A DNA stretch of 64,000 nucleotides, taken from positions 1 through 64,000 of the forward strand of contig NCGJ01000002.1 in the NCBI GenBank assembly GCA_002281555.1, read 5' to 3'. Position numbers and translations under genes: made by a program. Each line of letters starts with the position of its first letter. Within the stretch, counting starts at the first letter, position 1. Origin of the DNA: Hydrogenophilales bacterium 28-61-23. Its GTDB lineage: Bacteria > Pseudomonadota > Gammaproteobacteria > Burkholderiales > Thiobacillaceae. A model generated the notes under the pieces. The model was not told where the DNA came from, searched no databases, and was given only the letters and a program-made list of their open reading frames with translations. Below, in pieces: positions 10,523 to 18,996 of this stretch.

Positions 10523-11116
10523 ATGGGACTGCCGCTGCGCGATCCGGAATACCACACCTACGGCGATTACCTGACCTGGCCGGAGGACGTGCGCTACGAA
10601 TTGATCGACGGCGACGCCTACCTGATGGCGCCAGCCCCCACGGTCAGTCACCAGGACATCGCCGGCGAGGTGTACAGACAACTGGGAAATGCCTTGCAGG
10701 GCAAGCCGTGCCGCGCGCTGATTGCGCCGGTGGACGTGCGACTGCCGAAAGCGGATGAAGCCGACGAGCAGATCGATACCGTGGTGCAGCCCGATGTTCT
10801 GGTGGTCTGCGACAACGGCAAGCTCAGTGATCGCGGTGTGCGCGGCGCGCCGGACTGGGTGCTGGAAGTGCTGTCACCCGCCACGGCTGGTCACGATCAG
10901 GTCAAAAAGCTCCATCTCTACGAACGGCATGGCGTGCGCGAATATTGGCTGGTGCATCCGCGTGACAAGGTGTTGACCGTGTACACGCTGAACAACGGTG
11001 CCTATGGCCGCCCGTATACACAGGAACTCGTTGGCGAGACACCGGTTGGCGTGCTGGAAGGCGTCACCATCCAGTGGGACGACGTGGTCGCCCGTCTACC
11101 CAAACCCGAATTCTGA
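10523..11116 (+). CDS. Uma2 family (DUF820) endonuclease-fold protein
   Basis: 197 residues with the Uma2/DUF820 restriction-endonuclease-like fold: YELIDGD and the PD-(D/E)XK-like core QPDVLVVCD ... PDWVLEVLSPATAGHD followed by KLHLYERHGVREYWLV. The family is widespread and its physiological role is unsettled; a nuclease function is inferred only from the fold. AGGAGA lies just upstream of ATG 10523. It follows ilvD closely and may be read from the same transcript, although there is no functional connection. Confidence 0.85.
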   Translation: MGLPLRDPEYHTYGDYLTWPEDVRYELIDGDAYLMAPAPTVSHQDIAGEVYRQLGNALQGKPCRALIAPVDVRLPKADEADEQIDTVVQPDVLVVCDNGKLSDRGVRGAPDWVLEVLSPATAGHDQVKKLHLYERHGVREYWLVHPRDKVLTVYTLNNGAYGRPYTQELVGETPVGVLEGVTIQWDDVVARLPKPEF

Positions 11117-15911: not shown

Positions 15912-16202
15912 ATGACTTCAGCTCCCTCCCGCACCTGGCGCATTCCCCTGGAAGCCGACTTGCGCCACCGCGAATGGGATGGCGAACACGTCTTCTTCCA
16001 TGGCGCGGCGGGCGACACGCACCGTTTTTCCGAGGCCACCGCGCTGATCCTGCTGCGCTTGATGGCCGCCCCGGCCGACCAAGCCAGCCTGGCCCGCCTG
16101 CTGGCCGAATCGGCTGAAGTCGATCTGGCCGAAGCCGAACCGGCGCTGGCGGATATCCTGGCCGAACTGGCCAGACTCGAATATGCGGAGCCGGTGGCAT
16201 GA
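15912..16202 (+). CDS. HPr-rel-A system PqqD-family peptide chaperone
   Basis: 96-residue protein of the PqqD-like winged-helix (RiPP recognition element) type: WRIPLEADLRHREWDGE, then FSEATALILLRLMAA and two helices ending EYAEPVA. PqqD-like proteins hold a leader or substrate peptide and present it to a modifying enzyme. It is the first gene of a three-gene overlapping set with an HprK-like kinase and a nucleotidyltransferase, the arrangement named HPr-rel-A in TIGRFAMs. The substrate is unknown; the secreted protein at 18313 is the nearest candidate. The stop overlaps the start of the next gene by four bases. Confidence 0.85.
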   Translation: MTSAPSRTWRIPLEADLRHREWDGEHVFFHGAAGDTHRFSEATALILLRLMAAPADQASLARLLAESAEVDLAEAEPALADILAELARLEYAEPVA

Positions 16203-17101
16203 AACTGGCCGATCTGTCCCTGGCGCAACTGCGCCAGCGCCTGGCCGACAACGACTTGGCGTTGCGCACCGGCCCCTTCGTCACCCGCATACACAGCCCC
16301 ATGCCGCAAATTGCCGACGGCTTGCTGCGGCTTTATGGCGAATTCCGGCTCGATGACGGCAAGTTCCAGGATTTCCATGTCCGCGTCGGCCCGCCAACCG
16401 GCCTGCGCCGCTGGCTGCGGCCGCAGATCAATTTCTGGTATGACGGCCATTCGCCGTTCAAACCGCTACCGGCCAACCACGCCTTCGCGCTGATGGAATG
16501 GGGATTGAACTGGTGTGTCGCCGGCCACGCCCATCATTACCTGATGCTGCACGCCGCCGTGCTGGAAAAGAACGGCCGCGCCGTGGTGCTGCCGGGCGAC
16601 CCCGGCGCCGGCAAGAGCACGCTCACCGCCGCGCTGATGCTGTCCGGCTGGCGCTTGCTGTCCGACGAAATCACCCTGATCGACCGCGACGACGGCCTCT
16701 TGGTCGGCCTGGCGCGCCCGGTCAGCCTGAAGAACGCATCCATCGACGTGATCCGGCGCGCGTTTCCCGACGCGGTAATCGGCGCGCCGGCCTACGACAC
16801 ACACAAGGGCACGGTGGCGCATGTACGGCCCAGCGCCGACAGCGTCGCCCGCGTCGGCGAAAAAGCGCGGCCGGCCTGGGTCATCTTCCCGCGCTGGCGA
16901 GAAGGAAGCCCGGCGCGTCTGAGCCCGCATTCGCGCGCCGACGCGATGTTGCATACCGCCAGCCACGCCTTTAATTACAGCTTGTTGGGCGGACTCGGTT
17001 TCGAGCTCAACGCCGCGCTGATGGATGCCTGCACGTGCCACGACTTCGAATATTCAAACCTCGACGACGCGCTGCGGGTCTTTTCGGAATTGGCGGCATG
17101 A
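16199..17101 (+). CDS. HprK-related kinase A
   Basis: 300 residues, distantly related to HPr(Ser) kinase/phosphatase. The P-loop is GDPGAGKST (133-141), preceded by LMLHAAVLEKNG, in which His118 corresponds by position to the conserved HprK histidine region, and followed by LLSDEITLID, like the HprK acidic motif. The N-terminal 110 residues are not HprK-like. There is no PTS HPr gene in the window, so the target is probably not HPr. It overlaps both neighbours by four bases. HprK-like kinases in some lasso-peptide clusters phosphorylate a serine on the peptide tail; a comparable role here is inference. Confidence 0.88.
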   Translation: MKLADLSLAQLRQRLADNDLALRTGPFVTRIHSPMPQIADGLLRLYGEFRLDDGKFQDFHVRVGPPTGLRRWLRPQINFWYDGHSPFKPLPANHAFALMEWGLNWCVAGHAHHYLMLHAAVLEKNGRAVVLPGDPGAGKSTLTAALMLSGWRLLSDEITLIDRDDGLLVGLARPVSLKNASIDVIRRAFPDAVIGAPAYDTHKGTVAHVRPSADSVARVGEKARPAWVIFPRWREGSPARLSPHSRADAMLHTASHAFNYSLLGGLGFELNAALMDACTCHDFEYSNLDDALRVFSELAA

Positions 17102-18183
17102 GCCTTGACCAGCGCTGCCAACCCTTGCTCAACGTCCTGCGCGATGCCACGCACATGGCCACGCTCGATCTGGAAAACTGGGATTTGCTGCTACGCCAGG
17201 CCGGCTCCGCCGGGCTGCTATCCCGCATCGCCATACAAGCCGATGCGCTTGGCCTCGACGTCCAAGTCCCGGACGCGGTGCGCCCGCATCTGACCGCTGC
17301 CCGCACCTTGGCCGCCAAGCAACGCCAGGCCGTGCGCTGGGAAGCGCGCCGAGTGGCGCGCGCACTGTCGGGAATCGAAGGCCCCGTGCTGCTGCTCAAG
17401 GGCGCGGCTTATGCCATTGCCGACTTGCCGCCGGCCGCCGGCAGACTATTCGGAGACATCGATATTCTGGTTCCGCGGGCGCAACTCGGCCAGACCGAGG
17501 CCGCACTGATGCTGGCCGGCTGGCACACGCAGACACAGGACGACTACGACCAGCGTTACTACCGGCGCTGGATGCACGAACTGCCGCCGATGACCCACAT
17601 CCGGCGCGGCACGGTGCTCGATGTGCATCACAACCTGCTGCCGGAAACCGCGCGCATTCGCACCCATGCCTCGCCCATCCTCGACGCGGCCAAGGCACTG
17701 GCCGATCCGGCCGGGCTCAGCATCCCCGCGAATGTCGATCTGGTGCTGCATTCCGCCTGTCATCTGTTCCACGAAGGCGAATGGGGCCACGGCCTGCGCG
17801 ATCTGGTCGATCTCGACGCCATGCTGCGCACCTTCTCGGCCGAAGCGGATTTCTGGCCGAGGCTGCAGGCGCGCGCGCGGACCCTCAATCTGGGGCGGCC
17901 GTTGTATTACGCGCTGGACACCTGCCGACGCTGGCTGAAAACCCCCATTCCAGATCGCGTCATCGCCGAATGCCCATCGAAACCGCCGACATGGCAACGT
18001 CCGCTGATGCGCAAGCTATTCGATGCGGGACTGGCCTCGGTGCATGCCTCTTGCGCAAGCGGAGGTTTGAAATCAGCCACCTTCATTCTGTTCGTACGCG
18101 GCCACTACTTGCGCATGCCATGGCATCTGCTGTTGCCGCATTTGTTGCATCAGGCGCTCAGACGGGATGCGCCGCAAACCTGA
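17098..18183 (+). CDS. Nucleotidyltransferase family protein (NTP_transf_5 type)
   Basis: 361 residues with the uncharacterised nucleotidyltransferase fold: LLLKGAAYAIADLP followed by GRLFGDIDILVPR, the motif with paired aspartates expected to bind metal and nucleotide. It starts at ATG 17098, overlapping the kinase stop (ATGA); a longer frame start at 17035 lies within the kinase gene. It completes the HPr-rel-A cassette. Members of this family in lasso-peptide clusters act after an HprK-like kinase on the phosphorylated serine; that parallel is from memory and the function here is inference. The last 60 residues contain a basic, membrane-proximal-looking helix (FILFVRGHYLRMPWHLLL). Confidence 0.83.
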   Translation: MSLDQRCQPLLNVLRDATHMATLDLENWDLLLRQAGSAGLLSRIAIQADALGLDVQVPDAVRPHLTAARTLAAKQRQAVRWEARRVARALSGIEGPVLLLKGAAYAIADLPPAAGRLFGDIDILVPRAQLGQTEAALMLAGWHTQTQDDYDQRYYRRWMHELPPMTHIRRGTVLDVHHNLLPETARIRTHASPILDAAKALADPAGLSIPANVDLVLHSACHLFHEGEWGHGLRDLVDLDAMLRTFSAEADFWPRLQARARTLNLGRPLYYALDTCRRWLKTPIPDRVIAECPSKPPTWQRPLMRKLFDAGLASVHASCASGGLKSATFILFVRGHYLRMPWHLLLPHLLHQALRRDAPQT

Positions 18184-18208
18184 ACAAGTAGCGTCGGGAT
18201 TTTTTACA

Positions 18209-18225
18209 TTACGTTTTTCACGTAA
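18209..18225. promoter_or_regulatory. 17-bp inverted repeat, candidate activator site
   Basis: TTACGT-TTTTC-ACGTAA, a perfect six-base inverted repeat with 5-base centre. Its midpoint lies about 70 bases upstream of the transcription start predicted from the sigma-54-type promoter at 18262, a normal position for an enhancer-binding protein. Confidence 0.45.
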
Positions 18226-18261
18226 ACGCTAAGCCGTTGTTTCAAATTGGGATTATCCGGG

Positions 18262-18276
18262 TGGTATATTTCTTGC
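18262..18276 (+). promoter_or_regulatory. Sigma-54 (-24/-12) promoter of the GYWK-motif gene
   Basis: TGGTAT-N5-TTGC fits the RpoN consensus TGGCAC-N5-TTGC with invariant GG and GC at the exact spacing. It lies 37 bases before ATG 18313. A second inverted repeat, TTCACG-N6-CGTGAA (18283-18300), falls at the predicted start of the transcript and borders the ribosome-binding AAGGA, so it could be an operator or a leader hairpin. Confidence 0.65.
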
Positions 18277-18312
18277 TTATTATTCACGCAATTACGTGAA
18301 GGAACACACGCC

Positions 18313-18996
18313 ATGAATACACATAAAGATCCGACTTCCAGTGAAAACCGTCCCGCGGTCGATGAACAACGCCGCCGCCTGACCAAAGGCGGCTTGGCCG
18401 CGCCCATCGTCATTGGCGCTTTGTTGAGCCGCCCCGTGCTGGGCGCCGCACCGCACAACTGCACCATCTCCGGCCAGATCTCAGGCAATGTCTCCACCCA
18501 TGGCACTCCTGTTGACTGCAAGACCTTGGGACGTTCTCCCGGATACTGGAAAACCCATAACCCATGGCCCAACCCGACCGTCTATGGCTCCCCGGCCGCG
18601 GGCACATGCGTTACCAACGCGACCGTTGGCACGCGCTTCAATGGATTCCAGATCAACGGCGCGACTTTTCTAGCCGCTTTCAGGTGCAAGAAAGGCGTTG
18701 TACTTGATCCTCAAAGCACGGATTGGAGCACCACCACAACAAAGGCCACCATGTTGCAGGTTCTGAACACCGGTGGCGGCCTCAATGACACGGCAATCTT
18801 CGCTTTAGGCCGCGCAACAGTCGCTTCCTTGTTGAATTCTCTTTTTTACGCACCCAATTACCCGCTCAAACCGGAGCAGGTTATCGCCATGTTCAATGCA
18901 GTCTATCTGGGCGGGAAATATCAGGTTAACCCGACCACCTTCTGGGATCGCGATCAGGTAAAGATTTACTTCGAAAGCCTTTACGGTAGCCTCTGA
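18313..18996 (+). CDS. Secreted GYWK-motif protein, possible HPr-rel-A substrate
   Basis: 227 residues with an N-terminal export signal of twin-arginine appearance (EQRRRLTKGGLAAPIVIGAL, cleavage probably after VLGAA). The mature part has four cysteines and the motif LGRSPGYWKTHNPWP, a GYWK-type sequence seen in many secreted or surface proteins, then a region resembling a small enzyme-like or binding domain I do not recognise. It ends FESLYGSL, a serine one from the end. It lies 130 bases after the HPr-rel-A cassette under its own sigma-54-type promoter and is followed by a bidirectional terminator. That it is the cassette's substrate is inference from adjacency; a cell-surface role is likely. 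Confidence 0.7.
   Translation: MNTHKDPTSSENRPAVDEQRRRLTKGGLAAPIVIGALLSRPVLGAAPHNCTISGQISGNVSTHGTPVDCKTLGRSPGYWKTHNPWPNPTVYGSPAAGTCVTNATVGTRFNGFQINGATFLAAFRCKKGVVLDPQSTDWSTTTTKATMLQVLNTGGGLNDTAIFALGRATVASLLNSLFYAPNYPLKPEQVIAMFNAVYLGGKYQVNPTTFWDRDQVKIYFESLYGSL

Follow-up and report, generated by a model that had tools for sequence, protein, structure and literature searches.

A likely exported target for the HPr-rel-A kinase and nucleotidyltransferase trio, tied to bacterial slime production

The first 64,000 nucleotides of contig NCGJ01000002.1 of Hydrogenophilales bacterium 28-61-23 (assembly GCA_002281555.1; Gammaproteobacteria, Burkholderiales, Thiobacillaceae), hereafter called the window, carry a trio of overlapping genes for a PqqD-like protein, an HprK-related kinase and a nucleotidyltransferase, followed by the gene of an exported protein. 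This exported protein is the likely and hitherto unnamed target of a phosphate-and-sugar tagging system connected with bacterial slime production. We consider it probable that the four genes form one system, in which the exported protein acts as dedicated client and a serine behind its leader is phosphorylated and then decorated. From gene content, co-occurrence, conservation and the promoter, all of them observed, we infer the chemical steps, the export route and the role. The trio itself is known but unexplained; what we propose here is its client. The four genes are the following.

15912–16202, + strand: PqqD-like protein of the RiPP (ribosomally synthesized and post-translationally modified peptide) recognition element (RRE) type, 96 amino acids; TIGR04353, 39.4 bits (cut-off 35)
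16199–17101, + strand: HprK-related kinase A, 300 amino acids; TIGR04352, 395.4 bits (cut-off 200)
17098–18183, + strand: NTP_transf_5 nucleotidyltransferase; PF14907, 196.6 bits (cut-off 31.2)
18313–18996, + strand: exported protein, 227 amino acids, proposed client of the trio; its relatives adjoin the trio, and it belongs to no known family

The trio genes are joined by two ATGA overlaps, and 129 nucleotides separate the end of the nucleotidyltransferase gene from the client gene; an earlier note on this DNA had described these overlaps and placed a secreted protein about 130 bases further on, and its open reading frames and coordinates were confirmed. Together, the three genes (15912–18183) constitute the ‘HPr-rel-A’ set of NCBIfam (PqqD-like RRE, HprK-related kinase A and NTP_transf_5). 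The window kinase and chaperone pass the curated cut-offs of that system, the models of which name no client. The Pfam PqqD model gives the PqqD-like protein 17.4 bits, under its cut-off of 23.4. No NCBIfam or Pfam model matches the exported protein, and scanning 58 aligned client sequences did not detect any family shared by more than one member (best E 0.019). The features that the earlier note had read in the window client, namely a twin-arginine-like signal (leader RRRLTKG), the string GYWK, four cysteines (Cys 50, 69, 99 and 125) and the C-terminal end YGSL, are all present.

The link between the trio and the exported protein is far beyond chance. Three rounds of profile building, with the window protein as the starting point, yielded a client profile, and 110 loci were surveyed: 80 loci of named genomes (the best 80 of 143 kinase relatives) and 30 loci of the family, 83 of whose 117 genomes carry the kinase over the cut-off. 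A client relative scored by the profile lies on the same strand beside the trio in 108 of the 110 loci, upstream in 102 and downstream, which is the window arrangement, in six. The two misses are L047, the contig of which begins at the kinase, and L104, where the profile missed a twin-arginine (RR) leader protein with CTVSGNQS. There were no off-target matches in 27,416 six-frame open reading frames; the single match flagged as distant (L091) adjoins a kinase with a broken reading frame.

The same association was seen on a wider scale. Among 399 genomes of the order (thresholds of E 1e-30 for the kinase and E 1e-4 for the client profile, A1), 56 have both, 10 the kinase only, three the profile only and 330 neither (totals: kinase 66, client profile 59). 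The profile is thus present in 56 of 66 kinase genomes versus 3 of 333 kinase-free ones, with a Fisher P of 6e-54 that overstates independence because the genomes are related. In the three profile-only genomes the match covers the body part alone (profile about 74–175), in open reading frames of 342–1301 amino acids. Each of the ten kinase-only genomes has an RR-leader open reading frame adjoining the PqqD-like gene or the kinase; in three cases the grown profile scores it, and in the other seven it was recognized by pattern and eye. At the class level the kinase occurs in 42 of 370 genomes, and a profile-scored client stands beside the trio in 38 of 39 newly fetched loci; the contig of the missing one starts 217 nucleotides before the PqqD-like gene, and one locus (L176) gave no PqqD match. 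This set is only partly independent, as three of the 38 clients duplicate training sequences and five reach at least 60% identity. These loci and those of the ten genomes were judged with the profile from the first 110, other-type clients being identified by pattern and eye. The survey for which the earlier note had called thus favours the link and brought no refutation. A plasmid search returned four records, and on the plasmids of Vibrio alfacsensis and of the alphaproteobacterium Sphingomonas parapaucimobilis an RR-leader protein, labelled ‘hypothetical protein’ in RefSeq, lies upstream of the trio. The possibility that the trio and the exported protein are neighbours without a functional tie, to which the gap before the client gene and a promoter-like site of its own would lend some colour, is already very unlikely in view of their co-occurrence and adjacency across the class and on the Vibrio and Sphingomonas plasmids.

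Several variant arrangements were observed. One client gene is flanked by two kinase–nucleotidyltransferase pairs in L036:9669-15123, and two client genes stand in tandem upstream of one trio in L083:7957-9615. In L163, L165, L171, L173, L174 and L175, the client, the PqqD-like gene and the kinase remain together, but the nucleotidyltransferase is encoded on the opposite strand, upstream or at a greater distance. On the Sphingomonas parapaucimobilis plasmid (L227:5230-9932), the trio and the RR-leader protein adjoin glmU and glmS; this neighbourhood, concerned with the supply of UDP-N-acetylglucosamine (UDP-GlcNAc), is a hint as to the sugar donor.

The way in which the client varies is informative. 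Its body is divergent and replaceable, and the leader and two serines just behind it, Ser53 and Ser57, are conserved. The relevant elements of the window protein are listed below.

18313–18444, + strand: leader, residues 1–44, with the twin arginine R20 R21; RR in 58 of 58 aligned clients
18460–18489, + strand: proposed acceptor region CTISGQISGN, residues 50–59; conservation assessed in 110 clients
18469–18471, + strand: Ser53, proposed acceptor, invariant
18481–18483, + strand: Ser57, second candidate acceptor

Ser53 is kept in all 110 clients, Cys50 in 107, Ser57 in 105 and Trp79 in 103. For the alignment, 64 clusters were reduced to 58 representatives by excluding six whose starts were doubtful; R20, R21 and S53 are invariant in it. 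RR was found in 110 of 110 clients, but it also served as the trimming anchor; cleavage, placed by eye, would fall after about G44. Alignment-free patterns agree: S[GASNV]xxS occurs near the mature start in 102 of 110 clients and C-x(1-3)-SxxxS in 91, several of the failures being wrong anchors and some of them one-residue shifts. The mean column identity is 17% for the client (58 representatives) versus 62% for the kinase (24 sequences). Several clients have only the leader region in common, and 26 clients of other body types were listed. The extreme case is a client of 74 amino acids (L163:2288-2511), the size of a RiPP precursor, whose leader is followed by only about 13 residues (AGSACISCNASLI). 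A fixed leader and acceptor region joined to a fast-evolving or exchanged body is the pattern left by a leader-guided modification system. Another client (L130:5291-5740) has a long tail rich in Gly/Asn and Ser.

In contrast to the leader region, the features on which the earlier note had based its definition of the protein, GYWK and the YGSL end, proved not to be characteristic. Of the 30 family loci, 20 have the exact string GYWK, and of the 80 wider loci, nine; 30 of 110 clients carry it, which rules it out as a hallmark. Another five GYWK strings occur in unrelated open reading frames of the loci. The YGSL end is not conserved either, Ser being at position −2 from the C-terminus in 3 of 110 clients.

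This last count bears on the idea that the trio modifies a C-terminal serine in the client, in the way that kinases of the paeninodin type modify lasso tails. Such chemistry has been tested for lasso kinases (in the portion of PMC8498205 available to us), and many clients of other body types end like S-C-[WY]-[TS]-S; the window protein itself ends YGSL. The window-type tail, however, is not conserved, any Ser or Thr among the last six residues being present in only 63 of 110 clients, and an entire subgroup ends CPLN, with no serine. We therefore regard modification of the tail as unlikely. A kinase acting within the leader, on Thr36 or Ser39, could instead gate export and leave the mature protein untagged. 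Ser occupies position 39 in 101 of 110 clients, and Thr position 36 in 92; yet the window protein has Ala at 36, conserved c-region residues are expected of signal peptides too, and the nucleotidyltransferase would be hard to explain, all of which makes phosphorylation of the leader distinctly improbable.

The enzymes look active, as their catalytic residues are intact. In the kinase, the Walker A residues G136, G138, K139, S140 and T141, together with S155, D156 and E157, are invariant in 24 relatives, and the protein aligns weakly to the HPr kinase structure 1jb1 (E 6e-4). The nucleotidyltransferase residues K100, R115, D119 and D121 (start Met not counted) are present in 112–113 of 113 relatives; among solved structures, no sequence relative of this enzyme was found up to E 1. 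The genome of the organism contains a second, weak TIGR04352 match (25 bits, far under the cut-off).

Two better-characterized systems offer comparisons. The excerpted text of Popov et al. (2026, PMC13381572) describes the systems for linear polyphosphorylated peptides (LPP) of Bacillota as comprising an RRE, an HprK-like kinase, an NTP transferase, a SipW-like peptidase and an exporter; the kinase LppK attaches between one and four phosphates to LppA at Ser3, a residue directly after the leader. The same excerpts locate LPP loci among polysaccharide genes, give their role as unknown and call the family Bacillota-restricted. The window likewise unites a stand-alone RRE, an HprK-like kinase and an NTP transferase; in both systems the precursors have a conserved N-terminus and a variable C-terminus and the loci lie among polysaccharide genes, and, to judge from its sequence, the window client appears to have a conserved serine where LPP has its acceptor. 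Unlike LPP precursors, window-type clients are mostly 150–250 amino acids long, and the leader is of the twin-arginine type, without YxxPxVLxHQxIxFETxxS or [YW]xxP. Neither a SipW-like peptidase nor an MsbA-like exporter was found among ten neighbouring window genes, the genome as a whole not having been searched for them. As peptidase, exporter and [YW]xxP leader are missing, we do not class the window system as LPP; by analogy, it may nevertheless work like LPP.

Lasso peptides such as paeninodin and pseudomycoidin also combine an RRE with an HprK-like kinase and then a nucleotidyltransferase acting on the Ser phosphate; according to the part of PMC8498205 at hand, the nucleotidyltransferase PsmN adds a hexose to the Ser phosphate of pseudomycoidin, and the lasso acceptor is the C-terminal Ser. 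The window system differs in that PF13471 (lasso B2 leader peptidase) has no match in its own genome and no macrolactam cyclase (Asn-synthase-like) is encoded among the ten neighbouring genes, a search that was not extended genome-wide; the trio thus stands without lasso cyclase or leader peptidase, as the earlier note had recognized. All ten of these scanned neighbours have housekeeping or unrelated functions. A Uma2-family (putative endonuclease) gene lies at 10523–11113 of the window, adjoining ilvD.

A further line of evidence comes from the promoter of the client gene, which connects the system with XrtA/PEP-CTERM exopolysaccharide production. Two elements lie between the nucleotidyltransferase and client genes.

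18192–18208, + strand: PrsR-type enhancer box (motif 1 of PEP-CTERM genes), CGTCGGGATTTTTTACA, one mismatch to TGTCGG-N5-TTTACA
18262–18277, + strand: sigma-54 −24/−12 promoter-like site (GG-N10-GC), score 13.8 of 17

PEP-CTERM genes have been described, in the consulted portion of Haft et al. (2006, PMC1569441), as preceded by a 17-nucleotide motif ending TTTACA, a spacer of 32–92 nucleotides and then a sigma-54 motif. In the window, the box is separated by 53 nucleotides from the sigma-54 site, which lies 35 nucleotides before the ATG, so that the client gene has the box, the spacing and the GG/GC site of the PEP-CTERM regulon. Of 107 client genes, 72 are preceded by both the box and the sigma-54 site, as against a mean of 0.3 in shuffled sequences and 1 on the reverse strand. 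In the organism's own genome the box is found 30 times with at most one mismatch, versus 12 for a reversed control pattern, and at 15 of these 30 loci a simple pattern recognizes a PEP-CTERM-like C-terminus. A palindromic hexamer close to the promoter was rejected: no gapped dyad of it recurs, and enrichment was seen for the TGTCGG-N5-TTTACA box instead.

The exosortase XrtA is present over the cut-off in 62 of 66 kinase genomes versus 28 of 333 others, these being related and not independent genomes, and neighbour clusters among 100 loci include PrsT (29), PrsK (28) and PrsR (23). In Aquincola, an RpoN-dependent PEP-CTERM gene is required for flocs, as reported in the accessible part of PMC9850573. 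The PEP-CTERM-type promoter, the XrtA genomes, the Prs neighbours and this precedent make it probable that the client belongs to the matrix or the cell surface and is produced alongside exopolysaccharide. The likeness to the XrtA/PEP-CTERM system as outlined in those two sources extends to box, sigma-54 site, spacing and genomes; the client differs in having no PEP-CTERM tail, and consequently is not an exosortase substrate.

The common regulon, the XrtA genomes and the proximity of the cassette to XrtA-system genes in many loci would also suit an exported protein that is a partner or sensor, the trio having a different substrate, for instance a PEP-CTERM protein or a sugar carrier. We think this rather unlikely. 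Compared with the enzymes, the client evolves far more rapidly, and its body is swapped with leader and position retained, as expected of a substrate; the L163 client, moreover, is barely more than a leader.

The reading that we favour, phosphorylation and then decoration of a serine of the exported protein, is the best one in view of the intact enzyme active sites, the RRE-type chaperone and the LPP relative. The client N-terminus would serve as both twin-arginine-type export signal and RiPP-like leader. The PqqD-like protein would hold it in the cytoplasm, where the HprK-like kinase may phosphorylate Ser53 or, less likely, Ser57, and the nucleotidyltransferase would add a second group to the phosphate, probably a sugar or a nucleotide. 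After export and removal of the leader the tagged N-terminus would be exposed, and the product, under PrsK/PrsR/sigma-54 control of the XrtA/PEP-CTERM system, would most likely act in the slime or floc matrix. A bolder version, doubtful though worth stating, is that the Ser-phosphate-linked sugar built on the mature N-terminus, with the twin-arginine leader read as a RiPP leader, is a covalent foot or primer through which a matrix protein is attached to the exopolysaccharide of XrtA/PEP-CTERM bacteria.

A number of observations weigh against the favoured reading. Tat (twin-arginine translocation) export is uncertain, as the Tat model TIGR01409 matches 1 of 58 clients (E 0.096) and Ser or Thr precedes RR in 57 of 110. 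The motif [YW]xxP of lasso and LPP leaders occurs in 1 of 110 client leaders. The LPP transferase LppN was inactive in the host used, according to the excerpts of PMC13381572. The invariant Ser lies near a conserved Cys and may be structural. In the 26 clients of other types, which have several possible AxA-like sites per protein, Ser is at +3 of some such site in 23, but also at +5 in 20 and at +2 and +4 in 16, and the composite promoter precedes only 10 of them. The AlphaFold model of the client is poor (predicted local distance difference test score, pLDDT, 66), and a fold search with it gave eight PDB matches, none at E 0.001. Among solved structures, none is related in sequence to the client (best E 0.68).

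Overall, the interpretation of the earlier note, a cassette that phosphorylates and then decorates an exported protein, is partly supported. Searches of the open-licence literature on the kinase, the families, GYWK and RREs with twin-arginine leaders found no paper naming HprK-related kinase A or its substrate, nor a description of the trio–client link. With a client and one serine named, the question of the substrate of HprK-related kinase A becomes testable. If the proposal is true, leader-guided, RiPP-style phosphorylation would extend from small peptides of Bacillota to exported proteins of Pseudomonadota, and the exosortase/exopolysaccharide system, which the available part of PMC9850573 shows to matter for sewage-treatment flocs, would gain a new protein-modifying branch.

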